From a virus: a DNA stretch of 33,070 nt. A program made the translations under genes and the position numbers. The notes beneath the pieces are model-generated. The model made no database searches. It was not told the DNA's origin and was given only the letters and a program-made list of their open reading frames with translations. Location of the stretch: the IMG/VR virus record IMGVR_UViG_3300043449_000754, positions 1-33,070 of that record. One strand, given 5' to 3'. This document shows, one piece after another, positions 2,854-24,101 of this stretch (within the stretch, counting starts at the first letter, position 1; the number at the start of each line of letters is the position of its first letter).

Positions 2854-2876
2854 GACTCCTATGTTTTATGGTTAAG

Positions 2877-2898
2877 ACGGCAACCTTGTGAGTGCCGT
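2877..2898. other. Intergenic hairpin between two early genes
   Basis: ACGGCA (2877-2882) and TGCCGT (2893-2898) form a perfect 6-bp inverted repeat with a 10-base loop, in the 76-bp gap between the 2930-3052 and 2470-2853 genes. No T-run follows on the minus strand, so it is not a classical terminator. It may be an mRNA-processing or stabilising hairpin separating the two distal early cistrons. The sequence evidence is only the inverted repeat. Confidence 0.45.
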
Positions 2899-2929
2899 TT
2901 CGATTATTCAAATCTCATCAGTTAACCTG

Positions 2930-3052
2930 TTAGATGTACATCGGGCTTATGCTGTTGGTCACAAGCTTGTACGCGATGAAGATTATGCCATACGCTAACA
3001 TGCCGAACATTAGTCCTAGATACACCTTGGTTATTACATCAATTGCTTTCAT
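2930..3052 (-). CDS. Single-pass membrane microprotein, 40 aa
   Basis: A frame from ATG 3052-3050 to TAA 2932-2930, 40 residues. The core YLGLMFGMLAYGIIFIAYKL is a clear transmembrane helix flanked by Lys residues on both sides. No signal-peptidase site is obvious. It follows the conserved leader (GTAACCAATAAA, then CCC and AAATATC, then ATG). Small membrane proteins of this kind in early phage operons often act on the host envelope or in superinfection exclusion, but nothing here shows which. I do not recognise the family. Confidence 0.65.
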   Translation of the reverse strand: MKAIDVITKVYLGLMFGMLAYGIIFIAYKLVTNSISPMYI

Positions 3053-3073
3053 GATATTTGGGTTTATTGGTTA
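3053..3073 (-). promoter_or_regulatory. Conserved early-gene leader, copy 2
   Basis: On the minus strand, GTAACCAATAAACCCAAATA precedes the ATG of the 40-residue membrane microprotein. It shares TAACCAATAAA and the AAATA tail with copies 1 and 3. Confidence 0.5.
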
Positions 3074-3082
3074 CTTAATTTA

Positions 3083-3193
3083 TTAACGATGTGTGAACGG
3101 GATACGTACCTTTTGCTCACGTACTAATACTCCGTTTTGAAAGAATCCCCATACCTCAAAGATTCCCTCGATTCTAATTACTCTCGCTTCCAT
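3083..3193 (-). CDS. Hypothetical microprotein, 36 aa
   Basis: A frame from ATG 3193-3191 to TAA 3085-3083, encoding MEARVIRIEGIFEVWGFFQN and 16 more residues. It looks like a beta-hairpin followed by a basic tail. It follows the conserved leader CTAACCAATAAACAAATAAC directly before the start codon, the same arrangement as at 2215 and 3052, which is the main support for it being translated. Function is unknown. Confidence 0.6.
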   Translation of the reverse strand: MEARVIRIEGIFEVWGFFQNGVLVREQKVRIPFTHR

Positions 3194-3214
3194 GGTTATT
3201 TGTTTATTGGTTAG
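3194..3214 (-). promoter_or_regulatory. Conserved early-gene leader, copy 1
   Basis: Read on the minus strand, CTAACCAATAAA is followed by a short A-rich spacer and an AAATAnC tail ending at the ATG. The same block recurs at 3053-3073 and 2216-2240. It probably acts as a translation-initiation enhancer of the A-rich, Shine-Dalgarno-free type used in Bacteroidota, or as a binding site for an early regulator. Identity of role is inference. Confidence 0.5.
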
Positions 3215-3215
3215 T

Positions 3216-3261
3216 GGTGCAGTAGGTATCGCTCCTATTAATTAGTCTCTCTAACTGCACC
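3216..3261. other. 46-bp perfect three-way-junction (mini-cloverleaf) element
   Basis: On the plus strand: GGTGCAG (3216-3222) pairs with CTGCACC (3255-3261). Inside are hairpin TAGG/CCTA (3223-3226, 3234-3237, 7-base loop TATCGCT), linker TTAA (3238-3241), and hairpin TTAG/CTAA (3242-3245, 3251-3254, 5-base loop TCTCT). Every stem base is paired and only the linker and loops are free. The element can fold from either strand. It lies in the transcribed leader just upstream of the 36-aa early gene. It is too short for a tRNA. It could be a structured RNA, an mRNA-processing site or a DNA cruciform; the role is unknown. Confidence 0.6.
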
Positions 3262-3275
3262 TAGTATAACGTTTT

Positions 3276-3322
3276 GAACTTGCACCTCGCTTATATAGGT
3301 AGAATCGAACTACCACAAGTTC
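3276..3322. other. 47-bp folded element with 7-bp closing stem and T-arm-like hairpin
   Basis: GAACTTG (3276-3282) pairs with CAAGTTC (3316-3322). Inside is a 5-bp hairpin GGTAG/CTACC (3298-3302, 3310-3314) whose loop, read on the minus strand, is TTCGATT, a perfect tRNA T-loop signature. A competing pairing ACCT/AGGT (3284-3287, 3297-3300) is also possible. It is 14 bp from the 3216-3261 element, has nearly the same size, and shares TGCACCT with it. No matching acceptor stem for a real tRNA is present. It overlaps the last base of the stop codon of the 49-aa frame upstream. Confidence 0.5.
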
Positions 3323-3471
3323 TAGGTTTTTGATAGCCACGTGAAACTGCTATCTCTCTTCTTTATCCCTATGCTATGCATGGTGTTGACATCAGCCACC
3401 CGAGTAGTGTACTGATTGCCGTTGCTTTTGGGAGTCCTTATACTTACCCCGTACAACCCTAGGTCTGACAT
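3322..3471 (-). CDS. Hypothetical microprotein, 49 aa
   Basis: A frame from ATG 3471-3469 to TAG 3324-3322, encoding MSDLGLYGVSIRTPKSNGNQ and 29 further residues ending FTWLSKT. Composition is protein-like (no stop-codon-neighbour bias, mixed polar and hydrophobic), and the leader ends in ACAATAAACATTAACGGGGT, which partly resembles the conserved early leader. It would be the first gene of the leftward operon. No homology is recognised. Because the same stretch contains hairpins (for example GATAGC/GCTATC at 3332-3354), coding status remains uncertain. Confidence 0.45.
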   Translation of the reverse strand: MSDLGLYGVSIRTPKSNGNQYTTRVADVNTMHSIGIKKRDSSFTWLSKT

Positions 3472-3739
3472 ACCCCGTTAATGTTTATTGTCTTACCGAT
3501 TTTGATATACGCATGTAGATGCCTTGACTAGATTAGGTAGATGCCTTATTACTACCGACAACGCAACCTCTTACAGCGAGGGATATTACGCGACTTACGT
3601 GCCTAGATTACTCTACGTGTGTGTATACCAATATGTCAAAGAACTTTAGAGGTTGTGGTGATGTTCATCAGCGTCTCTGATACAAATAACGGAAGTCTAT
3701 CTCGAAATGATACAATTTTTTTTCAGTTAGATTGAAAAA
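3472..3739. other. Leader region of the leftward operon, no gene seen
   Basis: No convincing reading frame exists on either strand. It holds an 11-bp direct repeat GTAGATGCCTT (3515-3525 and 3537-3547), short hairpins (GGTAG/CTACC 3536-3556; CCTC/GAGG 3567-3581; TGATG/CATCA 3659-3670) and, just before the iterons, a T-run. It is most likely the untranslated leader and promoter zone of the leftward genes. I could not fix a convincing minus-strand TAnnTTTG box. Confidence 0.4.
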
Positions 3740-3740
3740 T

Positions 3741-3812
3741 ACGTAGAACTACGTAGAAGAGCCTACGTATAACTACGTAGTGCCAACTAAGTAGAACTAC
3801 GTAGATGACGGG
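3741..3812. repeat. Three tandem 24-bp iterons (ACGTAGAACTACGTAG)
   Basis: Three units begin at 3741, 3765 and 3789, exactly 24 bp apart. The first 16 bases of each are ACGTAGAACTACGTAG with one or two changes per copy; the last 8 bases vary. Each unit contains the palindrome CTACGTAG or a near copy, so each could bind a dimer. They sit at the divergence point of the leftward early and rightward late genes. Tandem iterons with internal symmetry are typical of replication-initiator sites or multi-site operators. The role is inference, but the repeat itself is directly visible. Confidence 0.8.
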
Positions 3813-3951
3813 TTTGGGATACGGGTTAAAATCGCTGAAACGTAAGCTAGACAAGGCTTTAAGAGAATTACATAAGATGGGTGTAAAAAATGTATGGGAA
3901 TTCACATGGTTAACAGGTCTTGCCCTCCCTGTATGGACGCATAACAGGTAG
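3805..3951 (+). CDS. Possible microprotein in the control region, 48 aa
   Basis: A frame from ATG 3805 to TAG 3951, encoding MTGLGYGLKSLKRKLDKALR, then a further amphipathic stretch ending WTHNR. Residues 8-27 would form a basic amphipathic helix, and the sequence reads like a small DNA- or membrane-associated protein. The start lies inside the third iteron, so a repeat-binding protein could control it. There is no Shine-Dalgarno sequence or promoter box that I trust. It is the only protein-like frame in the control region; I give it low to moderate weight. Confidence 0.35.
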   Translation: MTGLGYGLKSLKRKLDKALRELHKMGVKNVWEFTWLTGLALPVWTHNR

Positions 3952-4040
3952 GCCAAACGACAGGGCGAATGGATGGCCGAGCCAACAGCAAGTGTTAACG
4001 AATGTTAATTCTATTTAACATAATGGAAGTTATCAATCAA

Positions 4041-4088
4041 CAGGCAGGCCGACAGGCAGACAGGTCGGTTGGTTGTTCGGTTGGTTGG
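4041..4088. repeat. Four 12-bp repeat units in two families
   Basis: Units at 4041-4052 and 4053-4064 share CAGGCAG; units at 4065-4076 and 4077-4088 are TCGGTTGGTTG plus one variable base. The 12-bp register is kept across both families. Confidence 0.6.
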
Positions 4089-4195
4089 CAGTGCTACCTA
4101 CCTACCCTAAAATATGTATACATACATATCAATCGTTCGGTCGGCCGTCAGATAGGCTGACCATGAAAAGCTAGAAATTCCGACCATAATTTCTG

Positions 4196-4219
4196 AAATC
4201 AGACCCCCCCCTCTGATTT
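4196..4219. other. Hairpin with 8-bp stem and C8 loop
   Basis: AAATCAGA (4196-4203) and TCTGATTT (4212-4219) are perfect inverted repeats around eight C residues (4204-4211). Just upstream, TCTGA (4192-4196) can pair instead with TCAGA (4199-4203), so two folds compete. No T-run follows on either strand, so it is unlikely to be a terminator. The homopolymer loop is prone to slippage and on the other strand is G8. Confidence 0.6.
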
Positions 4220-4279
4220 AAAAACCGTTTTCCTTTCCGACCGAGCTGCGTAGAATCTGGTTCTTACCCAAATATTCCG

Positions 4280-4287
4280 TATATTTG
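4280..4287 (+). promoter_or_regulatory. Bacteroidota-type -7 box (TATATTTG)
   Basis: TATATTTG matches the TAnnTTTG box of the Bacteroidota primary sigma factor and lies 13 bp before the ATG at 4301. A -33 TTTG is not clear. It is the likely promoter of the 4301-6124 unit. Confidence 0.55.
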
Positions 4288-4300
4288 ACAAAAAAAAGGT

Positions 4301-4432
4301 ATGGCCAAATCTAGGAAGGAGTATCCAAAACCAAAGAGCAGAAGATCGATCAAGCGAGTCGACAATATGATAAAAATAAATGATAAAAAAATCGCTAAAT
4401 TTGTAGAAGAATATGCTACTAGAAATTCATAA
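4301..4432 (+). CDS. Basic microprotein, 43 aa
   Basis: ATG 4301 to TAA 4432, encoding MAKSRKEYPKPKSRRSIKRV and a C-terminal helix (KKIAKFVEEYATRNS). The N-terminal 20 residues are very basic with two YPKPKS-like turns, fitting nucleic-acid or capsid-interior binding. It is preceded by A7GGT and a TATATTTG box, and overlaps the next frame by 20 bp. No known family is recognised, though Lys/Arg-rich microproteins of this kind are common between structural genes in crAss-like phages. Confidence 0.65.
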   Translation: MAKSRKEYPKPKSRRSIKRVDNMIKINDKKIAKFVEEYATRNS

Positions 4433-4550
4433 TACTATACCTGTCGGACTGAATCTTGGTTTCGAGATTTACAGCAAAGATGACGAGTATGATCACCATG
4501 AGGTACATATTAATTTATTAATTATAAAACTTGTTTTCAAATGGCAATGA
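4413..4550 (+). CDS. Small beta-strand protein, 45 aa
   Basis: ATG 4413 to TGA 4550, beginning MLLEIHNTIPVGLNLGFEIY. It alternates hydrophobic strands with an acidic-His turn (SKDDEYDHHEV) and ends in INLLIIKLVFKWQ. It overlaps the upstream basic microprotein by 20 bp and the 527-aa gene by 10 bp, so three frames are chained by overlap, a good sign of translational coupling. The 50-aa protein at 13873-14025 has a comparable strand-turn-strand layout. Function is unknown. Confidence 0.65.
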   Translation: MLLEIHNTIPVGLNLGFEIYSKDDEYDHHEVHINLLIIKLVFKWQ

Positions 4551-6147: not shown

Positions 6148-6168
6148 GGGCCTTCGGGCCCTTTTTTT
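6148..6168 (+). terminator. Rho-independent terminator with UUCG tetraloop
   Basis: GGGCC (6148-6152) and GGCCC (6157-6161) form a 5-bp GC stem closed by a C(UUCG)G tetraloop and followed by seven T residues. It separates the 527-aa gene from groEL. Confidence 0.9.
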
Positions 6169-6191
6169 GTTTACAGTAAACAAAAAATTAC

Positions 6192-6199
6192 TAAATTTG
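6192..6199 (+). promoter_or_regulatory. Bacteroidota-type promoter of groEL-groES
   Basis: TAAATTTG (6192-6199) is the -7 box, with TTTG at 6166-6169 as a possible -33 element 22 bp upstream; the latter lies inside the T-tract of the preceding terminator. The groEL ATG is 17 bp downstream with an A/T-rich leader. Confidence 0.6.
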
Positions 6200-6216: not shown

Positions 6217-7782
6217 ATGATAGTAAAGGAGATCCATTTTGGCGATGAAGGCCAAAAAAAATTAAAGCTTGGCATCAAGAAGATTGCTGGGGCGGTAAAG
6301 AGTACTCTTGGCGCTAGAGGTCGGACCGTATTAATCGAGTCGGAGCAGCACGTGGGAGGAATTACAGTGACAAAGGACGGTGTAACGGTGGCAAAGGCTA
6401 TCAACTTGTACGACCCGACCGAGAACCTGGCCGTCATCATGATGAGGCAGGCAGCAGACAAGACGGCAACAGTGGCTGGTGACGGTACAACGACATCAAT
6501 TGTCTTGGCAGAGGCTATAATTGACGCATCTGACAAGTATCTAAAGCCCGACCACAATGTAACCGAGGTGATACGCAAGATAAACGCCATCACCAAGAAG
6601 GTCGTCTCTATTTTAGATAAAAAATCAAAAAAAGTAAACGGCAGGAGGCTGTATGACGTGGCCACTATATCGTCAAACAATGACCACGAGGTGGGCAAGA
6701 TGATCGGTGACGCATTCTCAGAGGTTTCTCTTGTGACCGTTGAGAACAGCATGAACTCTGAGACAAGGGCCGAGATTATTAATGGGATGCGTATCGAGAG
6801 GGGATACACGTCACAGTACTTTGTGACTGACGCAAAGAAGCAGGAGTGTGTCCTTGACAACCCGTACGTACTTATATGCGACCACGAGATCAGCAACATA
6901 TCCAACCTAGAGAAGGTGCTTGCTCCAATTGTCTCTCAGGGCAAGTCGTTGCTCATCATTGGCACATTAGGGCCAAACGCACTTCAGACGCTAAACGTGA
7001 ACGTGTACCAGGGCAAGATTAAGGCGTGCAATATTATTCCTCCATCCTTTGGATACAGACAGAAAGACCTGCTGAAAGATTTGGCGGTAGCCCTTGGTGG
7101 CACATACTTCAGCGATGACACTGGTGACGATCTGTCAATCATATCTCTTAGCGACCTTGGAAGAGCGTCAAAGGTAATTGTAAGAAAGGACATGACCGTG
7201 TTTATGCACCAGTCTGAGTTTAAGTCTGACATTGACAACCACCTTGCTGATTTAAAGGGAATGATAGACCAGACAGACAGCCAAGAGGACAGGGAATTCT
7301 TAAGAGAGAGGATAGCCAACATATCTGGTGGAATAGGGGTGATATATGTCGGTGCACAGAGCGACATTGAGCAGAAGGAGAAGAGAGACAGGATAGATGA
7401 CGCTGTGTACGCTGTGATGGCGGCACTAGAGGAGGGCATTCTTCCAGGGGGTGGGATTGCCTTGGCAGAGTGTGCATCGTTGATAGATGACCACGAGGAC
7501 GTGGCGGCTAAGATCATGTATGACGCACTAATATCACCATTCAATCAGATTCTAGTTAACGCAGGCAAGAACCCGAAATCTATCGCACTCAATATGCTTG
7601 AGAACAAGGGATGGGGATATGACGTAAAGAATGATGTGGCTGGTGACATGATAAAGATGGGGATCATTGACCCGACCAAGGTCACAAAGAATGCACTACT
7701 AAATGCTGTGTCTGTTGCGACCACAATAATGAGTACTAACGCAATTATAACAAATATCAGAGCAGATGAGAGTTCTAAATAA
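6217..7782 (+). CDS. groEL: GroEL-family chaperonin (Hsp60), phage-encoded
   Basis: A 521-residue group I chaperonin, slightly shorter than the usual 540-550. It would form the ATP-driven folding ring with the GroES encoded next. Visible family features: ITVTKDGVTVAK with the catalytic-domain Asp (D54, equivalent to E. coli D52); AGDGTTT with D89 (D87); apical RGYTSQYF carrying the substrate-binding Tyr/Phe cluster; IDDAVYA with the hydrolytic Asp (D398); LPGGG; and IDPTKVTKNAL with the late Asp (D495). All ATPase positions appear intact. The C-terminal GGM-repeat tail is missing; it ends IRADESSK. It has its own promoter box after a terminator. The last 17 bp overlap groES. Codon use is richer in G/C-ending codons than in the 527-aa gene upstream, compatible with separate acquisition. 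Confidence 0.97.
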   Translation: MIVKEIHFGDEGQKKLKLGIKKIAGAVKSTLGARGRTVLIESEQHVGGITVTKDGVTVAKAINLYDPTENLAVIMMRQAADKTATVAGDGTTTSIVLAEAIIDASDKYLKPDHNVTEVIRKINAITKKVVSILDKKSKKVNGRRLYDVATISSNNDHEVGKMIGDAFSEVSLVTVENSMNSETRAEIINGMRIERGYTSQYFVTDAKKQECVLDNPYVLICDHEISNISNLEKVLAPIVSQGKSLLIIGTLGPNALQTLNVNVYQGKIKACNIIPPSFGYRQKDLLKDLAVALGGTYFSDDTGDDLSIISLSDLGRASKVIVRKDMTVFMHQSEFKSDIDNHLADLKGMIDQTDSQEDREFLRERIANISGGIGVIYVGAQSDIEQKEKRDRIDDAVYAVMAALEEGILPGGGIALAECASLIDDHEDVAAKIMYDALISPFNQILVNAGKNPKSIALNMLENKGWGYDVKNDVAGDMIKMGIIDPTKVTKNALLNAVSVATTIMSTNAIITNIRADESSK

Positions 7783-8023
7783 GTTCATACTAATCGAGAA
7801 GATTGTAGAGCAGAAAAAATCAAGCAGCGGACTAATACTTAGCGGTGACGAGTACCAGGACATGAGGTACCAGTACGGTATAATCGTTGAGCCAGGGATC
7901 AATGTTGTAGGAATGTCAAACGGTGACAAGGTGATGTACGACAAGGTTCACTCATACGAGGTCCTAATTGACAACAATAGGTTTACTGTTGTTCAGGAGA
8001 AGGACATTGTTTGCGTTCTTTAA
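7766..8023 (+). CDS. groES: GroES-family co-chaperonin (Hsp10)
   Basis: An 85-residue co-chaperonin, the lid of the GroEL chamber, slightly shorter than the 95-100 residues of bacterial GroES. The segment SSSGLILSGDE matches the mobile loop, with LIL in place of the IVL tripeptide that docks on GroEL. YQYGIIVEPG, then NGDKVMYDKV and FTVVQEKDIVCVL, match the beta-barrel and the conserved C-terminal strand (ESDILA in E. coli). It starts 17 bp before the groEL stop, so translation is coupled and the order is groEL-groES, reversed from the normal bacterial operon. Its 3' end overlaps a convergent minus-strand gene by 41 bp. Confidence 0.93.
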   Translation: MRVLNKFILIEKIVEQKKSSSGLILSGDEYQDMRYQYGIIVEPGINVVGMSNGDKVMYDKVHSYEVLIDNNRFTVVQEKDIVCVL

Positions 8024-8489
8024 AGTCTGAGTTAAATCTCTTTATAGCGTGGGCTAGCATCCTCTCGGAGTAAGAGGCGTTTGGTTTCATTACCTTATTT
8101 CGTCTTGGTGTCTCTGGGAAGGGTTCTAGCCCAGTTAGCTTTCTATACATACTGGCTATCATCTTTTTAGACTGGAACGATAGCTCGTACAGGTTGTACT
8201 CTCCGTACCTTCTTTTCCTCCATATTGAGATGAACCCCTCTCTAAGTAGTCTGTCAAATCTTCTTTTATCCCAAGACATAAACGATGCGTACTCGTTAAA
8301 TTTTGACCTGGTGAATAGTTTCTCTGAGTACAGGTACAATAGCATATCAACGTCTGCAGATGACTTTAGCCCGTACTGGAATATGGCCCACTTTCTAATC
8401 ATCCCCCAGTTCTTAAGAAAGTCGTACTTGGTATCTCTGCCATAGTAAATAGCGTCAACACGCTTCTTTCTCTTTTTAATTATTCTCAT
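7983..8489 (-). CDS. Probable winged-helix DNA-binding regulator
   Basis: A 168-residue, strongly basic protein on the strand opposite to all genes around it. Residues about 40-125 read like a winged-helix domain: a long helix (SADVDMLLYLYSEKLFTRSK), a recognition-helix candidate (SWDKRRFDRLLREG), a wing (IWRKRRYGEYNLYELS) and a last helix (SKKMIASMYRKLTG). The order resembles MarR/PadR-type regulators. The N-terminus is RIIKKRKKR and the C-terminal tail is basic and probably disordered. It converges on groES (41 bp overlap) and diverges from 8521-8907, with face-to-face promoter boxes between. A role in timing late transcription is inference. Confidence 0.75.
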   Translation of the reverse strand: MRIIKKRKKRVDAIYYGRDTKYDFLKNWGMIRKWAIFQYGLKSSADVDMLLYLYSEKLFTRSKFNEYASFMSWDKRRFDRLLREGFISIWRKRRYGEYNLYELSFQSKKMIASMYRKLTGLEPFPETPRRNKVMKPNASYSERMLAHAIKRFNSDFKERKQCPSPEQQ

Positions 8490-14849: not shown

Positions 14850-15060
14850 AAAAATATCTGTAGGACCAGACTACATGAAGTCCATGCACTACGTTGTTGG
14901 TCAGGATGTTCTTAGGGGAAATGGCACCATCGATACAATTTTAATGGAGGACGATCTATCTATATCTATATATATTTTAAATCAGTCAAAGGAAATTGTT
15001 AAGTGGAAAAGCTTTTCGTATTCAATGCCAATATCTATTGAGTATAATATAGATTTCTAA
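14836..15060 (+). CDS. Conserved small phage protein (MNIIRKISVGPDY)
   Basis: A 74-residue protein starting MNIIRKISVGPDYMKSMHYV. That start (IRKISVGPDYKxAMHYVVGQ) is one I recall from conserved proteins lying just upstream of terminase genes in crAss-like phages. The rest is beta-rich (TILMEDDLSISIYILNQSKE, IVKWKSFSYSMPISIEYNID). It overlaps the preceding gene by 14 bp and shares one base (15060) with the next start. Function is unknown. Confidence 0.82.
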   Translation: MNIIRKISVGPDYMKSMHYVVGQDVLRGNGTIDTILMEDDLSISIYILNQSKEIVKWKSFSYSMPISIEYNIDF

Positions 15061-15620
15061 TGAAATCTCCGCATCATTTTATAGTAACGCCTAACGATAG
15101 TAGACGTTACGATAATATACGTAAGTATGGTGACGTTGACTTTATTATAAGTTCATCTCAAGAAGACCACACTGTATCTAACAGATTGGCCATAGTTGTA
15201 TCTGTACCTATTAACTATGACGGCCCAATAAAGAGTGGCGATCACGTGATAGTTCACCACAATGTGTTTAAGTTCTACTACGACATGAAGGGCAACCAGA
15301 AGAGTAGCTGGCACCATTTATTTGACAATTACTTTATAATTGAACCAGATCAGTTATACCTATACAAAGACCCAAACGGTGATTGGATGGCACCGTATCC
15401 GTATTGTTTTGTGAGACCAATAGATAATCAAGACAAGATAATCTCAAGCGCTGGATCGAGGGAGCAATTATGGGGGGAGCTTGTTTATTTTAACGACATG
15501 CTAAAAGATGTTGAGGCTGGAGATACGATATCTTTTTCGCCAGACAGTGAGTACGAGTTTAGGGTAGACGGAGAGATTCTTTACAGGATGTACAACAAGA
15601 ACATATGTCTAAAAAAATAG
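15060..15620 (+). CDS. Protein with GroES-like C-terminal half
   Basis: A 186-residue protein. The first half contains RYDNIRKYGDVDFIISSSQE, then NRLAIVVSVP, then SGDHVIVHHNVFKFYYD; the GD-VIVHHN-F motif recurs in conserved phage proteins of this type. The C-terminal segment (EAGDTISFSPDSEYEFRVDG, then EILYRMYNKNICL) aligns by eye with the end of the GroES encoded at 7766 (GDKVMYDKVHSYEVLIDNNR, then FTVVQEKDIVCV). Both halves follow the GroES order of strand, loop, GD-turn, strand. I infer a GroES-fold protein, possibly a co-chaperonin variant or an unrelated beta-barrel virion factor. It overlaps the next gene by 16 bp. The first half is poorly conserved and the mobile loop is not obvious. 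Confidence 0.65.
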   Translation: MKSPHHFIVTPNDSRRYDNIRKYGDVDFIISSSQEDHTVSNRLAIVVSVPINYDGPIKSGDHVIVHHNVFKFYYDMKGNQKSSWHHLFDNYFIIEPDQLYLYKDPNGDWMAPYPYCFVRPIDNQDKIISSAGSREQLWGELVYFNDMLKDVEAGDTISFSPDSEYEFRVDGEILYRMYNKNICLKK

Positions 15621-15886
15621 AGTTAATACAAGCGGCAAAGGTAGCTGTAGATGAGCTAATTAAGGTTCTTCGTGAGCCAATTATAACTCACGCAGAGGAC
15701 GATATATCTGCCGATAAGCTAAAGAATGCTGCATCGGCAAAGAGGCTTGCCTTTGAGGATGCTCTGTACATGTTGGGCAAAATTGATGAGGAGGAAAATA
15801 GAGATGTGCAGCAACCTGTTGCACAAATTGATTTTGGTAAGCATGGATTTGCTGAGGGTAAGGCGAAAATAAAAAATGGAAAATAA
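15605..15886 (+). CDS. Candidate small terminase-associated protein, 93 aa
   Basis: A 93-residue, mainly helical protein starting MSKKIELIQAAKVAVDELIK. The segment DDISADKLKNAASAKRLAFE with DALYMLGKIDEEEN fits proteins I recall immediately upstream of the large terminase in crAss-like phages; their helices and position suggest a small terminase role, but no DNA-binding motif is obvious. The C-terminus is basic (GKAKIKNGK). It overlaps the terminase start by 11 bp. Confidence 0.65.
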   Translation: MSKKIELIQAAKVAVDELIKVLREPIITHAEDDISADKLKNAASAKRLAFEDALYMLGKIDEEENRDVQQPVAQIDFGKHGFAEGKAKIKNGK

Positions 15887-18800
15887 TCTATATACTGTTC
15901 TTGAAGACTACGTAAATAAGTCTACAATCTCAAATAAAAATAGGAGAAAGAACTGGGAGTATGGTTATAATAAAGACCACGACCTTGTCGTAATATCAAA
16001 GGACGGCACTATTGGAGATATATACAATATAAGCGGTGTAAAGGTTGCGATACCATCAGTTCCAGAGAAGGTCGAGAACCGAGGATCAAGGTGGGAGCCT
16101 CAAGAATATCCAAAAGAACTTCAAAAGATAAAGAGCATATTTGACTGGAACAGGAAGGACAATGCATTTAAGGTTCAGTATGTAGACTATATCGAGCAAG
16201 AGTTTGACAGGAGAGACAACGGGTTCTGGTTTATGAACAACGGCAATCCAACCTATATGACTGGCACACACTACATGTACCTACAGTGGACAAAGATTGA
16301 CATTGGTCTTCCAGACTTTAGGGAATCCAACAGAATATTCTATATTTACTGGGAAGCCTGCAAGGCAGACAACAGGTCGTTTGGGATGTGCTACCTAAAG
16401 AACAGACGATCTGGTTTCTCTTTTATGAGCTCTGCAGAGACATGTAACACGGGTACAATTGTAAGAGACTCAAGGATAGGAATACTATCTAAAACTGGGT
16501 CCGATGCAAAGAAGATGTTCACCGACAAGGTTGTACCAATAGTAAGAAACTATCCATTCTTCTTTAAGCCAATACAGGACGGTATGGACAATCCAAAGAC
16601 CGAGCTGTCGTTTAGGGTGCCTGCCAGTAAGATCACTAAAAAGAACATGGACGAGGAGAAGGTAGATGACATAGAGGGTTTGGACACAACTATTGACTGG
16701 AAGAACACGGCAGACAACAGTTACGATGGTGAGAAGCTATTACTATTGGTTCATGACGAGTGCTATGCCCCAGACACTAAAATATTGATGGAAGATTTCA
16801 CCTTTAAACCAATAAAAGACATTAGTGTTGGAGACAAGCTACTTGTAGAGGGTGGAAAAATAAAGACGGTTGTAAAGAAGACCAGCGGAACCACAGATAG
16901 ATATTTAGTAAGGCAGCCATATGGAGAGGATTACATCGTAACCAAAAACCATAGACTAGTATTTAATGAGTACCGCAAGGGAGAGGTTATAATGAAACCC
17001 GATGAATACATAAACAGCTCTAAGTTTAGAAAGCAGCACATAACCAGGGTTACGTCAAGTGGAATTGAGTCTAACGATGTATTTGATGGTATTCCACCCT
17101 ATTTGTTAGGGCTATGGCTTGGAGACGGAAGGAGCAGTAGCATGACCATACTTGTAAATAAATACGAAGAGCCAGAGATACTTGACTACTTAGGAAAGGT
17201 ATCTACAATTATGGGGATTGACTTTGATCTAAAGAAAAGTACGTCTGAAAAAATTGTTGAATTTGCATTTAAAGGAATAAACAATGAATTAAGAAAAATA
17301 GGCGTATACAATAATAAGCACATACCAATCGATTATATGAGGTCGTCTATTGACGCTCGTCTACAGTTATTGGCTGGTATTATCGAGTCTGACGGTTATT
17401 CCGATAAAAAGAAGAACATTGTGTCGATAGGCATGAATAGAAAACATCTTATCGAACAAATTAGATTTTTAGCGTTATCGTGTGGTTTAAGCTGTGGTAA
17501 TATTATAACCAAGAAGACTAACTTTAACACTGAATCGTACAATATAAGTATATCTGGGAATCTATCAATAATCCCATTAATTACAAAAAAGAAATCCTTT
17601 GACGGATACGTTCCTAAAACCAGAGGTCGAAGAAATAAAGTTACTGTTGAGTATTTAGATAATGGCGATTACGTTGGTATACAGGTAGACGCTGATACAG
17701 ATGACGAAAGAAAGTTAATCCTAAGTGATTTCACTGTCAGCATGAATAGCGGAAAATGGGAAAAGCCAGAGAACATATTAAACAACTGGAGGGTAACCAA
17801 AACATGTCTGCGCTTAGGTGCGAAGATCATAGGAAAGTGCATGATGGGATCAACATCTAACGCACTGCCAAAGGGTGGGGAGAACTTTAAGAAGCTATAC
17901 AACGATAGCAATGTAGCACAGAGGTCTGCAAATGATCAGACAAAGAGCGGACTATACTCGTTATTTATACCGATGGAGTGGAATGTTGAGGGCTACATAG
18001 ACGAGTTTGGATGGCCAGTTCTTGATAATCCAGAAAAGCCAATCAAGGGTATAGACGGTGAAATGATAAAGTCGGGGGTTGTAACGTGGTGGACGAACGA
18101 GGTTAACGCCCTTAAGTCTGACTCTGACGCATTAAATGAATTTTATAGGCAGTTCCCAAGAACCGAGTCTCACGCATTTAGAGACGAGTCCAAGCAGTCT
18201 GTGTTCAACCTAACCAAGATATACCAGCAGATCGACTATAACGACTCTCTAATAAAGGAGAAATTCTTAACCAGGGGATACTTCCACTGGAAGAACGGAG
18301 ATAAGGACACAGAGGTGGTCTGGACACCAGATAAAAACGGTAGGTTTTTAGTATCTTGGATACCAAAACAACATCTAAGAAATAATATTATAACGAAAAA
18401 TGGCAAAAAATATCCAGGAAACGAGCACATGGGAGCATTTGGTTGTGACCCTTATGACATATCGGGTGTTGTTGGAGGAGGTGGCTCTAACGGTGCTCTC
18501 CATGGTATGACACAGTTTCACATGTCTGATGGACCAACAAACGAGTTCTTCTTAGAATATATAGCGAGACCACAAACTGCTGAGATATTTTTTGAGGATG
18601 TCTTGATGGCTTGCCATTTTTATGGAATGCCAATACTAGCAGAGAACAATAAGGCCAGACTACTATACCATTTTAAAAACAGGGGCTACCGTGGGTTTTC
18701 CATGAACAGGCCAGACAAAAATTTAACCAAGCTATCTAAGGCAGAGCTAGAGATAGGAGGTATACCAAACTCAAGCGAGGACGTTAGGCAGGCTCATGCA

Positions 18801-19082
18801 TCTTGCATAGAATCATACATAGAGGAGTACGTAGGTTTTGATAGCGAGAGCACTTATCGTGATTCTGGGTGTATAGGATCGATGTACTTTAATAAAACTT
18901 TAGAGGATTGGGCCAGGTTTGACCCAATGAACAGAACAAAGTACGATGCCTCAATTAGTTCTGGATTGGCAATAATGGCCACAAGGAGGCACATGTTTAC
19001 ACCAGAAAGAAAAGAATCAAAAATTAGTATTAAATTTGTAAGATACAATAATCAAGGAAGTCACAGCAAAATTATAGAATAG
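15876..19082 (+). CDS. terL: Large terminase subunit (TerL) containing an intein
   Basis: A 1068-residue reading frame that becomes a 739-residue terminase after removal of a 329-residue intein. TerL is the ATP-driven DNA-packaging motor and nuclease. The ATPase part has a crAss-like Walker A segment (YLKNRRSGFSFMSSAE, residues about 171-188), a Walker B LLLLVHDE (residues 288-295) and the usual GKW segment after it. The intein begins at C296 and ends at N624, splitting Walker B from its following Ser-Gly-Lys-Trp. The nuclease part shows GCDPYDIS (about residue 856) and later acidic residues in FEDVLMACHF and ILAENNKARL. Spliced length fits crAss-like TerL. It ends 1 bp before the portal start. 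Confidence 0.93.
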   Translation: MENNLYTVLEDYVNKSTISNKNRRKNWEYGYNKDHDLVVISKDGTIGDIYNISGVKVAIPSVPEKVENRGSRWEPQEYPKELQKIKSIFDWNRKDNAFKVQYVDYIEQEFDRRDNGFWFMNNGNPTYMTGTHYMYLQWTKIDIGLPDFRESNRIFYIYWEACKADNRSFGMCYLKNRRSGFSFMSSAETCNTGTIVRDSRIGILSKTGSDAKKMFTDKVVPIVRNYPFFFKPIQDGMDNPKTELSFRVPASKITKKNMDEEKVDDIEGLDTTIDWKNTADNSYDGEKLLLLVHDECYAPDTKILMEDFTFKPIKDISVGDKLLVEGGKIKTVVKKTSGTTDRYLVRQPYGEDYIVTKNHRLVFNEYRKGEVIMKPDEYINSSKFRKQHITRVTSSGIESNDVFDGIPPYLLGLWLGDGRSSSMTILVNKYEEPEILDYLGKVSTIMGIDFDLKKSTSEKIVEFAFKGINNELRKIGVYNNKHIPIDYMRSSIDARLQLLAGIIESDGYSDKKKNIVSIGMNRKHLIEQIRFLALSCGLSCGNIITKKTNFNTESYNISISGNLSIIPLITKKKSFDGYVPKTRGRRNKVTVEYLDNGDYVGIQVDADTDDERKLILSDFTVSMNSGKWEKPENILNNWRVTKTCLRLGAKIIGKCMMGSTSNALPKGGENFKKLYNDSNVAQRSANDQTKSGLYSLFIPMEWNVEGYIDEFGWPVLDNPEKPIKGIDGEMIKSGVVTWWTNEVNALKSDSDALNEFYRQFPRTESHAFRDESKQSVFNLTKIYQQIDYNDSLIKEKFLTRGYFHWKNGDKDTEVVWTPDKNGRFLVSWIPKQHLRNNIITKNGKKYPGNEHMGAFGCDPYDISGVVGGGGSNGALHGMTQFHMSDGPTNEFFLEYIARPQTAEIFFEDVLMACHFYGMPILAENNKARLLYHFKNRGYRGFSMNRPDKNLTKLSKAELEIGGIPNSSEDVRQAHASCIESYIEEYVGFDSESTYRDSGCIGSMYFNKTLEDWARFDPMNRTKYDASISSGLAIMATRRHMFTPERKESKISIKFVRYNNQGSHSKIIE
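16761..17747 (+). mobile_element. Intein with LAGLIDADG homing endonuclease
   Basis: The 329-residue intein starts with Cys (block A: CYAPDTKILMEDFTFKPIKD), has a block B of TKNHRLVF with the splicing T-x-x-H, two LAGLIDADG-type motifs (LLGLWLGDG at host residues about 410-418 and LLAGIIESDGY at about 498-508), and ends with block G LSDFTVSMN followed by Ser. The residue before the final Asn is Met, where most inteins have His, and block F lacks the usual His. The insertion follows HDE of the TerL Walker B motif. Both LAGLIDADG motifs keep an acidic residue, so the endonuclease may still be active; splicing of the atypical C-terminus cannot be judged from sequence. Confidence 0.9.
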
Positions 19083-19083
19083 A

Positions 19084-21513
19084 ATGGAGAAACCATCTGT
19101 CGTAATATATCAAAATCCGTTCCCAAGTCAAATGGTTTCGGATGAAGAGCAACAAACCAGCGAGTATGGTTTGAAGATTGGTAAAGCTATTGAAGGGGAA
19201 TGGTTTAAACGTAAGAATAATACGTGTAGATTTTACGATCAATGGGGCGAGCACCACAGGCTTCGTCTTTACGCTAGAGGCCAACAACCAGTACAAAAAT
19301 ATAAGGACGAGTTATCTATCAATGGCGACATGTCGATGATGAATTTAGACTGGACTCCAGTTCCAATTATACCTAAGTTTGTTGACGTTGTGGTTAACGG
19401 AATGTCGGATAGATTATTTAAGGTAAGGACTGAGGCTCAAGACGTTATGTCGGCAGAGCGAAAGAATATATTTCAAGAGATGATCGAGGCCGACATGGTG
19501 GCTAAAGATTTTCTAACGATGACCAAGGAACAGTTTGGTGTAAATGCGTTTAATGTTGACCCAGAGGAATTACCAAGCACTGATGAAGAGTTAGAGCTTT
19601 ATATGCAGATAAAGTACAAGCCAAGTATAGAGATAGCAAATGAGATAGCTATAGACACTATATTTGAGATGAACGACTACAACGAGCTAAGAAAACTAAT
19701 TAACTACGATTTAGTTACGCTTGGCGTGTCTGTTGTTAAGCACTCATTTTTAATAAACGATGGGCTAAAGGTTGACTATGTCGACCCAGCTAACTGGATA
19801 CATAGTTATACAGAAAAGAACGACTTCTCTGATTGTTACTATTTTGGAGAGGTAAAGCAAATGCACTATACCGAGGTCTTAAAGATAGACCCAAAATTAA
19901 CCGAAGAACAACTAAACGAGATAAGAAATAGCAGTGCCGCTTGGTACACGTACTTCCCTATTATTAGAAACTATCAAGATGATTATTTTACTAATGAGAT
20001 AGTAACCCTTATTTACTTTAACTACAAGTCAAGTAAAAAATTTGTATGGAAAAAGAAACTACTTGAAAATGGTGGAGAAAGGGTTATTAGAAAGGGAGAA
20101 GAGTTTAATCCACCAATGGAGGATGGAATGCCTTTTGAAAGGGTTGAAGCGGTTAGAGATGTTTGGTACGAAGGCGTACTGGTAGCTGGGACAAACATCA
20201 TACTCAAGTGGGATATGATGAGGAACATGGTTAGACCAAAGTCTGCATCACAAAGAGCATACCCTAACTATATTGCGTTTGCACCAAGAATGTATAAAGG
20301 ATCATTGGAGTCTTTAGTTAGAAGAATGATTCCGTTTGCCGATCAGATTCAGCTAACACACTTAAAGCTACAGCAAGTTACGGCACGTGTAGTTCCAGAC
20401 GGTGTATTTATTGACGCTGACGGTATTAACGAGGTAGACTTGGGTACTGGGGCAGCATACAATCCAGAAGACGCATTAAAATTATACTTCCAAACAGGTA
20501 GTGTTATAGGCCGAAGCTATACTCAAGACGGTGAGTTCAATAATGCCAGGATCCCAATTCAAGAGCTAAGCACAAATAGTGGCCAAGCTAAGATGTCTTC
20601 ACTTATAAACAACTATAATCATTACCTAAACATGATTAGAGATGCTACAGGAGTTAGTGAGGCAAGGGATGGTAGTATGCCACACCCAGACGCACTTGTT
20701 GGGATTCAAAAATTAGCAGCTTTAAATTCTAATACCGCTACAAGGCACATACTTGATGGTAACTTAAATATTACAAAAAGGTTGGCAGAGTGCGTATCTA
20801 TTAGGGTGGCTGATATATTAGAGTACTCAGACTTTGCTGAAGAGTTTGCAATGCAGATAGGTAAGTACAATATATCTATTCTTGATGAGATTAGAGATCT
20901 GTACCTGTTTGATTTTGGTATTTTCATTGACCTCGCCCCAGACGAAGAAGAGAAGCAAATGCTTGAGGCCAATATACAGGTCGCCCTTCAACAACAGACG
21001 ATTGACCTTGAGGATGCTATTGACATTAGAAACATAAAGAACATTAAGCTGGCGAACGAGTTGTTGAAGATGAAGAGAAAGAAGAGGATGGAGCAGCAGC
21101 AGAAAGATAAGCAGATGGAGTATCAAATGCAGATGCAGACTAATATTCAATCACAACAAGCTGCTTCCGAGTCTAAGGCACAATTGTTACAGATGGAGGC
21201 TCAGAGCAAGATACAGATCAAAGAGGCCGAGGTTAATTACGAGATAATGAGGATGAAGGCCGAGGTAGAGATGAAGAGAGAGCTGATGGACCTTGAGTTC
21301 CAATACAATATGCAGTTAAAGGGAATGGAGGCCGATCAATTAAAGAAAAGAGACGAAGATAAAGAAAAAGCAAAAGACAAAAGAGTTGATATCCAAGCGT
21401 CAAGACAGTCAGAGTTAATTAATCAGAGAAAGAACAATCTTCCTCCTATAGACTTTGAAAGTACTGAAGACTCTTTGGATGGATTTGATTTAGAGTCTTT
21501 TGGACCAAAATAA
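19084..21513 (+). CDS. Portal protein
   Basis: An 809-residue protein, the size typical of crAss-like portals. It forms the dodecameric vertex ring for DNA passage. The core contains FYDQWGEHHRLRLYARGQQP, WTPVPIIPKFVDVVVNGMSD and later YVDPANWIHSYTEKNDFSDC, a layout I recognise from crAss-like portals. The C-terminus (from about residue 640) is a Gln/Met/Glu/Lys-rich coiled coil (RMEQQQKDKQMEYQMQMQTN). No signal or membrane segment is present. The position directly after TerL and before a scaffold-like gene and the capsid gene agrees with the assignment. Confidence 0.92.
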   Translation: MEKPSVVIYQNPFPSQMVSDEEQQTSEYGLKIGKAIEGEWFKRKNNTCRFYDQWGEHHRLRLYARGQQPVQKYKDELSINGDMSMMNLDWTPVPIIPKFVDVVVNGMSDRLFKVRTEAQDVMSAERKNIFQEMIEADMVAKDFLTMTKEQFGVNAFNVDPEELPSTDEELELYMQIKYKPSIEIANEIAIDTIFEMNDYNELRKLINYDLVTLGVSVVKHSFLINDGLKVDYVDPANWIHSYTEKNDFSDCYYFGEVKQMHYTEVLKIDPKLTEEQLNEIRNSSAAWYTYFPIIRNYQDDYFTNEIVTLIYFNYKSSKKFVWKKKLLENGGERVIRKGEEFNPPMEDGMPFERVEAVRDVWYEGVLVAGTNIILKWDMMRNMVRPKSASQRAYPNYIAFAPRMYKGSLESLVRRMIPFADQIQLTHLKLQQVTARVVPDGVFIDADGINEVDLGTGAAYNPEDALKLYFQTGSVIGRSYTQDGEFNNARIPIQELSTNSGQAKMSSLINNYNHYLNMIRDATGVSEARDGSMPHPDALVGIQKLAALNSNTATRHILDGNLNITKRLAECVSIRVADILEYSDFAEEFAMQIGKYNISILDEIRDLYLFDFGIFIDLAPDEEEKQMLEANIQVALQQQTIDLEDAIDIRNIKNIKLANELLKMKRKKRMEQQQKDKQMEYQMQMQTNIQSQQAASESKAQLLQMEAQSKIQIKEAEVNYEIMRMKAEVEMKRELMDLEFQYNMQLKGMEADQLKKRDEDKEKAKDKRVDIQASRQSELINQRKNNLPPIDFESTEDSLDGFDLESFGPK

Positions 21514-22673: not shown

Positions 22674-24101
22674 ATGGCTGGTACATTACAAACGAGCCCA
22701 GGTGTAGCAATTACACCTAGCTCAGTGAAGGCAACATTGCCTACAAACTATATTACAAACTTCAACTTCTTGAATCAGTATCTTCCAGATACTTACGAGC
22801 AAGAATTTGAGCGTTACGGAAACCGTTCAGTTGCATCTTTCTTGCGTATGGTTGGTGCTGAACTTCCTTCTAACTCTGACATGATTAAATGGGCAGAGCA
22901 AGGTCGTTTGCATACAAAATATACAGCATGTTCTATTGCGTACGGTGCTGGTAACGACACCGCCGTTCTTACAGTTGCAGATCCAAGTATTACTGCGTGT
23001 AACTTTAGAGTAAACCAAACTGTATTCTTATCTTCAAATGTTTCTTCGGCATCTGATAAAGCTATTATTACTGCTGTATCTGGATTAACTTTTACAGTGT
23101 CTTATTATTCTGCCGCTGGTGGTACTATTGTAGATACAGGAAACAATGACATTACTGCATTTGTTTATGGTTCTGAATTTGTAAAAGGAACAAATGGAAT
23201 GGGTGGTTCTTTAGAGGCCGAAGACTTATTCTTTGACGTTAAACCTATTATCATTAAGGACACATACACAGTATCTGGTTCTGATATGGCGCAAGTTGGA
23301 TGGGTTGAAGTGACTACAGAAAACGGAGCTACTGGTTACTTGTGGTACATGAAGTCTGAGCACGAAACTCGTCTACGTTTTGAGGATTATCTTGAAATGG
23401 CAATGGTTGAAGGTGTTCCTGCTGAACAAGGGTCTGCGGCTGCAACATTCTTAAACAATGCCCCTTCATATCCTGCACCATCTACTCTTGCAGCAGCTGG
23501 TACACAAGGATTATTCAGTACTATTGAAGGTAGAGGTAATGTTTGGTCTGGTGGTAACCCATCTTCATTGGCTGACTTTGATACTATTATCCAAAGACTT
23601 GACAAGCAAGGTGCTATCGCTGAAAACGTATTATTCTTGAATCGTCAGTTCTCTTTCGATATCGATGATATGTTGGCCGCTCAAAACTCTTACGGAGCAG
23701 GTGGTACATCTTACGGTCTATTTGACAATAGCGAAGAGATGGCGTTGAACCTTGGTTTCTCTGGATTTAAGAGAGGGTACGAGTTCTATAAAACTGACTG
23801 GAAATATCTTAACGATGCAACACTTCGTGGAGGTTTAGTTGGTGGTGTAGTTAACGGAGTATTGGTTCCTGCTGGAACAATGAGTGTATACGATCAAGTT
23901 CTTGGTAAAAATGCTAGACGTCCGTTCTTACACGTTCGTTACCGAGCTTCTGAGGCTGAGGATCGTAGATACAAAACTTGGATGACTGGTTCGGCTGGCG
24001 GTGCTGCAACTAGCGATCTTGATGCAATGCAAGTTAACTTCTTGTCTGAGAGAGCGCTTTGTACACTTGGTGCTAACAACTTCGTTATCTTCAAGGGATA
24101 A
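22674..24101 (+). CDS. Major capsid protein (HK97-fold, crAss-like)
   Basis: A 475-residue protein with the N-terminal pattern FNFLNQYLPDTYEQEFERYG, then NRSVASFLRMVGAE and IKWAEQGRLHTKY, which I recognise from crAss-like major capsid proteins. The later part shows ASEAEDRRYKTWMTGSAGGA, and the end LCTLGANNFVIFKG. It forms the icosahedral shell. The leader AAATTTTTAAAAA before ATG is A/T-rich without a Shine-Dalgarno sequence, typical of Bacteroidota. Third positions favour T and codon use is more biased than in neighbours, as expected for a very highly expressed gene. A hairpin terminator follows 12 bp after the stop. Confidence 0.95.
   Translation: MAGTLQTSPGVAITPSSVKATLPTNYITNFNFLNQYLPDTYEQEFERYGNRSVASFLRMVGAELPSNSDMIKWAEQGRLHTKYTACSIAYGAGNDTAVLTVADPSITACNFRVNQTVFLSSNVSSASDKAIITAVSGLTFTVSYYSAAGGTIVDTGNNDITAFVYGSEFVKGTNGMGGSLEAEDLFFDVKPIIIKDTYTVSGSDMAQVGWVEVTTENGATGYLWYMKSEHETRLRFEDYLEMAMVEGVPAEQGSAAATFLNNAPSYPAPSTLAAAGTQGLFSTIEGRGNVWSGGNPSSLADFDTIIQRLDKQGAIAENVLFLNRQFSFDIDDMLAAQNSYGAGGTSYGLFDNSEEMALNLGFSGFKRGYEFYKTDWKYLNDATLRGGLVGGVVNGVLVPAGTMSVYDQVLGKNARRPFLHVRYRASEAEDRRYKTWMTGSAGGAATSDLDAMQVNFLSERALCTLGANNFVIFKG

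Follow-up and report, generated by a model that had tools for sequence, protein, structure and literature searches.

Phage GroEL is known to occur with or without GroES (PMC7185714). Phages EL, OBP, and AR9 encode GroEL-like rings that are reported to work without a co-chaperonin; two of these chaperonins, those of OBP and AR9, are single-ring (PMC9598537), and that of EL has just 22% identity with GroEL (PMC7185714). T4 does not encode a GroEL, and its co-chaperonin gp31, a single-domain protein with a mobile loop and no roof hairpin, serves the GroEL of the host. Among relatives of Cellulophaga phage phi38:1, GroEL was found in 36 of 78 environmental genomes (PMC5332604), and GroEL together with GroES has been reported in Maribacter phage Panino (PMC11590407). 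The phi38:1 GroEL protein has been detected in virocells and free virions (PMC13288928), which is the sole protein-level evidence and comes from a distant relative of the phage studied here. Tandem GroES lids have been described as chloroplast-specific (PMC5780408), and mixed Cpn10/Cpn20 lids have precedent (PMC4242682; PMC5780408).

Here, we examine a complete IMG/VR virus record (IMGVR_UViG_3300043449_000754; 33,070 bases, hereafter the window), in which, unlike in EL, OBP, and AR9, a clear group I GroEL is encoded together with its own GroES. We propose that the window probably encodes a self-contained three-part group I chaperonin for virion proteins, made up of GroEL, a small GroES, and a second, tandem co-chaperonin that we call ES2 (Table 1). 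The earlier note on this DNA had passed over ES2, the gene convergent with groES, the GroEL substitutions in the groove and at inter-ring positions, and the absence of a GroES roof hairpin. It had considered a complete GroEL/GroES pair unusual for a crAss-like phage, a view that we cannot share: 266 phage records have GroEL matches, pairs are annotated in Elemovirus, Callevirus, and Immutovirus, and a member of Crassvirales also has both genes. The pair is already known, and the tandem third component is the undescribed part; in the literature searched, we found no paper on tandem GroES in phages and no description of a set of GroEL, GroES, and tandem lid.

Table 1. Features of the window, with coordinates and strand.
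Feature	Coordinates	Strand	Remarks
Intrinsic terminator	6148..6168	+	GGGCC-TTCG-GGCCC hairpin 6148-6161, T run to 6168; fold z = -4.1
Presumed Bacteroidota-type promoter	6166..6199	+	TTTG 6166-6169, 22 nt, then TAAATTTG 6192-6199
groEL	6217..7782	+	521 aa; ATPase residues retained, C-terminal GGM tail absent; substitutions at the SR1 inter-ring sites and at L234 and V263
Small groES	7766..8023	+	85 aa; SGLILSG in the mobile loop; roof hairpin absent
Convergent gene	7983..8489	-	168 aa; PHROG 17028; 3' end overlaps groES 3' end by 41 bp
ES2, second co-chaperonin	15060..15620	+	186 aa; two tandem GroES-like domains; two genes before terminase
Small gene between ES2 and terminase	15605..15886	+	93 aa; no family match
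Terminase large subunit with intein	15876..19082	+	Hint residues 296-368; homing endonuclease 483-562
Portal protein	19084..21513	+	Used for phage placement
Major structural protein	22674..24101	+	PHROG 13704; 25-65% identity to relatives

Both members of the pair match their families above cut-off in the HMM check that had been suggested for them. GroEL matches Pfam Cpn60_TCP1 (PF00118; E = 6.9e-57, 193.7 bits, cut-off 34.3), PHROG 5725 (E = 3.5e-127), and NCBIfam NF009487 (485.9, cut-off 352); it scores below the cut-off of the equivalog TIGR02348 (479.6 against 582) and is therefore divergent. The small GroES matches Cpn10 (PF00166; E = 2.7e-10, score 40.6 against a gathering cut-off of 21.1), and its model matches Cpn10 structures in structure comparison. 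As the earlier note had described, the pair is present and intact, overlaps by 17 bp (7766-7782), and has groES downstream of groEL, the reverse of the order in 78 of 80 bacterial loci. The 17-nt overlap recurs in 40 of 46 lineage loci when the longest ORF is taken; in the other six, the longest ORF begins 12 nt further upstream, and in one example among them (L008) the inner ATG of groES is kept. Read where dS is not saturated, dN/dS is 0.04-0.07 for groEL, 0.04-0.08 for the small groES, and 0.03-0.05 for ES2. All three genes are under purifying selection, which is strong for groEL and groES, and with such low values we reject gene degeneration.

The arrangement upstream of groEL, read earlier as a UUCG terminator followed by a promoter box, is also borne out. 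None of 200 shuffles folds as well as the cUUCGg hairpin, and a hairpin of differing sequence (GGGCC-TTCG-GGCCC, GGGGTCACTGACCCC, CCCCGATAAAAAGTCGGGG, and others) lies at the same place in most relatives. The adjoining TTTG-22-TAAATTTG we take to be a promoter of the Bacteroidota type; a TAnnTTTG-type box is found upstream of groEL in most of 23 aligned relatives. Because the box is mostly kept in relatives while the hairpin sequence changes, we regard both signals as real.

Alignment of the window GroEL confirms the ATPase Asp positions, the YxxxYF cluster, and the missing GGM tail that had been noticed before. The ATPase residues T30, K51, D52, G53, D87, T89-91, D398, G415, and D495 are kept, P33A and N479D are substitutions at residues of ATP binding or hydrolysis, and the apical residues Y199, Y203, and F204 are retained along with L237, L259, and V264. 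A GGM tail is present in 38 of 43 cellular GroELs and in none of the 24 from phages. In the groove that receives lid and substrate, the window protein has L234E and V263N, at positions that are L234 in 42 of 43 and V263 in all 43 cellular GroELs; L234, L237, and V264 are lid contacts (PMC5653362). Mutation of R452, E461, S463, and V464 turns E. coli GroEL into a single ring (PMC5653362), and at these SR1 positions the window GroEL has R452N, E461N, S463K, and V464S, and also A109P. The alignment is gap-free around the substituted sites. Of 180 positions invariant in cells, 28 are lost in all 12 members of the phage clade to which the protein belongs. Across this clade, the ATPase residues are constant while groove and inter-ring positions vary, which argues against general decay as the source of the substitutions. 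Together, the lost inter-ring residues and the changes at L234 and V263 suggest a ring that is possibly single and has coevolved with its own lids, away from those of the host; for the single ring taken by itself, we consider the substitutions a possible sign, and lean against it.

The small GroES has L-I-L as its mobile-loop tripeptide (SSSGLILSG), intact as reported earlier; a loop of L-I-L type is conserved, and its S-G-L is invariant or nearly so in 15 relatives. Where E. coli GroES has the roof hairpin, the alignment shows a gap, as in T4 gp31, which also shares the mobile loop; a roof hairpin is not a required feature of phage co-chaperonins.

Cellular GroELs nearest to that of the window are 38-42% identical and are spread over many phyla. 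In a tree of 69 proteins, the window GroEL groups with those of MW202828, Panino, and Elemovirus in a clade that holds only phage proteins and lies apart from every cellular sequence; the clade has support of 88/77, and its depth is unsure owing to long branches and the midpoint root. GroELs of Vibrio phages group with gammaproteobacteria and that of SJC03 with Bacteroidales, as separate captures. As far as sequences can tell, the GroEL/GroES pair of the window is a long-standing phage lineage and no recent host capture.

The evidence for ES2 is partly of a different kind. It matches PHROG 13932, “co-chaperonin GroES” (E = 1.4e-17), and has 294 matches in IMG/VR; no Pfam or NCBIfam model matched it, and a sequence search against PDB returned nothing, the structural match coming from a fold search. 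Its AlphaFold2 model (35 sequences) is all-beta, with pLDDT 78 and pTM 0.74. The top solved structures are chains R and Q of 7ekq, tandem Cpn20-type co-chaperonins of the Chlamydomonas chloroplast, matched over the full length with E = 5.6e-5 and a moderate TM of 0.54, and the remaining strong structural matches are single Cpn10s. The C-half is recognized by the bacterial GroES profile (Prob 96.8%, E = 2e-10), whereas the N-half matches the GroES profile weakly (HHalign 13%, score 22, where shuffled sequences reached at most 14), and its assignment as a GroES-like domain draws mainly on the predicted fold and on the relatives. In the window and Elemovirus lineages, the N-domain loop reads FII, FIV, or LIL at the place matching the tripeptide of the small GroES, and in Elemovirus-type tandem proteins the GLILS of the small GroES corresponds to GLILN in the N-half; residues 31-40 of the model, which are predicted with low confidence, coincide with this loop. 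The tandem proteins of Panino, phi13:2, and phi38:1 no longer have the tripeptide, the C-domain loop of ES2 is shortened, and an invariant VHHN...F motif is atypical for GroES. As modeled, ES2 is a Cpn20-like arrangement of two domains, head to tail, and we incline slightly toward regarding it as a working co-chaperonin. It is about 12% identical to the plastid/apicoplast Cpn20 (7ekq Q and R), from which it differs in being viral, in its other invariant motifs, and in the short C-domain loop; the two probably originated independently.

All three genes are found together in 17 of 20 related virus records, many of which had been picked for having GroEL, and the other three records break off shortly upstream of the ES2 position; of the sufficiently long records retrieved by way of ES2, seven of seven carry the full set. 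The trio is also present in MW202828, Elemovirus, Panino, and phi38:1. The Elemovirus locus (elemo Flavobacterium phages) resembles the window in having groES directly behind groEL and a 180-aa tandem co-chaperonin adjoining the terminase (before TerL), with a homologue of the convergent gene nearby, but its GroEL is 39% identical, the overlap is 1 nt, L234 is kept, and the cassette lies on the strand opposite to the structural genes. Cellulophaga phage phi38:1 and Calle (Pervagoviridae) likewise have GroEL, Cpn10, and a tandem co-chaperonin before TerL; in these, however, groES precedes groEL with one gene between, and GroEL is 36-37% identical to that of the window and sits on a different branch of the tree. 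In phi13:2 (Pachyviridae), both co-chaperonins are present but no GroEL could be detected. Flavobacterium phage MaF61 encodes a 187-aa two-domain GroES (L130:912-1475) about 14 nt before groEL; both of its halves match the GroES profile, and this pairing is the most direct hint of a tandem GroES working with GroEL.

Several further observations concern individual records. Panino at first seemed to be without a small GroES, an impression overturned by a wider profile: the protein is divergent, annotated as hypothetical, and encoded downstream of groEL (L004:38128-38395, minus strand; E = 2.7e-5). Panino ES2 used as a query found no relatives in IMG/VR. Lahndsivirus rarus (cr111_1; Crassvirales) has GroEL and a 136-aa “10 kDa chaperonin” near the terminase (L121:31148-34412); the 182-aa protein before its terminase, tried as a candidate tandem homologue, gave no match. 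The record “Acinetobacter phage MD-2021a” (L124) has a groS-groL pair between the housekeeping genes lipid kinase and dgkA and a GroEL with a GGM tail; it resembles a bacterial contig that was deposited as a phage.

If the three proteins act together as we propose, the small GroES would be translated from its overlapping start behind groEL, ATP-driven GroEL would bind newly made virion proteins (capsid, portal, fibres), and the phage's own lids would cap it while the enclosed protein folds. That GroEL and GroES form a working chaperonin is very probable. A heptameric ring has to be matched by seven lid domains, for which reason tandem and single proteins may combine in a mixed lid, in which ES2 and GroES would share one lid (e.g. 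three tandem proteins plus one single, giving seven domains), like chloroplast Cpn10/Cpn20; argued from that analogy, the mixed lid is a tentative idea and rather unlikely. The changed groove and interface would make a private machine. A fuller picture, doubtful to a similar degree, is that of a viral chaperonin, possibly single-ring, with a mixed Cpn10/Cpn20-like lid that evolved independently of plastids, with L234E and V263N co-adapted and no exchange of lids with the host. Points against the three-part reading are the weak N-half match and moderate structural match of ES2, the loss of its loop tripeptide in three phages, its shortened C-domain loop, and the L234E and V263N changes, since lid and substrate are held at these positions in the E. 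coli protein. Late timing, replacement of the host GroEL, and cargo specificity, as put forward in the earlier note, would be conceivable features of such a system.

The ES2 gene is about 7 kb away from groEL and in the company of packaging genes, so that ES2 may act in the head or in packaging: it could be a protein of GroES fold that no longer takes part in chaperonin work, with GroEL and the small GroES as the whole chaperonin. Its position just before the terminase, kept in all relatives, would fit such a role, as would the VHHN...F motif and the loss of the loop tripeptide in some lineages. Set against this, ES2 is always accompanied by a small GroES, even in the GroEL-less phi13:2, the N-domain loop is conserved in the window and Elemovirus lineages, and MaF61 pairs a two-domain GroES directly with groEL; we judge this reading unlikely, while still giving it real weight. 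Another reading takes phi13:2 as its guide: the lids would serve mainly the GroEL of the host, for which T4 gp31 is the precedent and which the absence of a roof hairpin from the small GroES, as in gp31, also favors, and the phage GroEL would be an optional extra. The constant pairing and translational overlap of groEL and groES in the window lineage, and the diverged groove of the phage GroEL, which fits a co-adapted private lid, make this improbable.

The remaining readings question the genes themselves. Decaying, functionless chaperonin genes, or a GroEL reused as a virion component, might be suspected from the 28 cell-invariant positions lost throughout the clade and from the phi38:1 GroEL in free virions (PMC13288928), but the latter may reflect co-purification, and the low dN/dS of groEL and groES (0.04-0.08) and the intact ATPase residues leave very little probability for this. 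Least probable is that a host groE operon was captured recently or that the assembly produced an artefact. Capture does exist elsewhere, in the Vibrio phage and SJC03 GroELs; here, cellular GroELs are distant, the clade is phage-only, the gene order is reversed, and dozens of independent contigs share the arrangement. The phylogeny against cellular and phage GroELs for which the earlier note had called found no host genus with near-identical sequence, which that note had named as the sign of capture or artefact, and we reject both.

The three-part chaperonin that we favor would matter beyond this phage. In chloroplasts, tandem lid chains, each with an even number of domains, have to fit a ring of seven-fold symmetry, and a phage with a tandem lid, a single lid, and its own GroEL would offer an independent, small, and experimentally easy test case of this symmetry problem. 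It would also test how far GroEL can shed inter-ring and groove residues and yet work with a private lid. Cultivated relatives (Cellulophaga phage phi38:1, Flavobacterium elemo phages) make knock-outs and purification feasible.

The gene convergent with groES has a homologue in 48 of 48 loci with groEL and groES, and in 47 of these it overlaps the groES end; at the Elemovirus locus, the homologue lies 29 nt from groES with no overlap. Homologues are also present in Panino, phi38:1, and phi13:2, in the last of which the gene lies near the small GroES although GroEL is absent. Judged by eye, its product looks like a winged-helix DNA-binding protein, and it is possibly a regulator of the chaperonin cassette.

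The host of the phage is probably an aquatic member of Bacteroidota. Its closest relatives are MW202828, Elemovirus, Maribacter phage Panino, Pervagoviridae, and Pachyviridae, none of them classed in Crassvirales; the portal has no match in Crassvirales at 1e-5, and portal and TerL show just remote similarity to the true member Lahndsivirus rarus. The label “crAss-like phage” given earlier is thus rejected at the level of close homology, by portal and terminase kinship and by nearest named taxa outside Crassvirales. Among the structural genes, the major structural protein is probably the major capsid protein and a likely client of the chaperonin, and the position of the 93-aa gene product would fit a small terminase subunit. 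The terminase is 1068 aa long in the window and 748 aa in the relative MW202828; its intein (residues about 296-562) comprises Hom_end_hint and a LAGLIDADG homing endonuclease. Between leftward and rightward genes, at about 2854-4540, there is an extended region in which large genes are missing and two kinds of repeat occur, palindromic ones of the TACGTAGAACTACGTAG type and others of the CAGGCAGGCCGACAGG type; it may be an origin or a control region for both directions.
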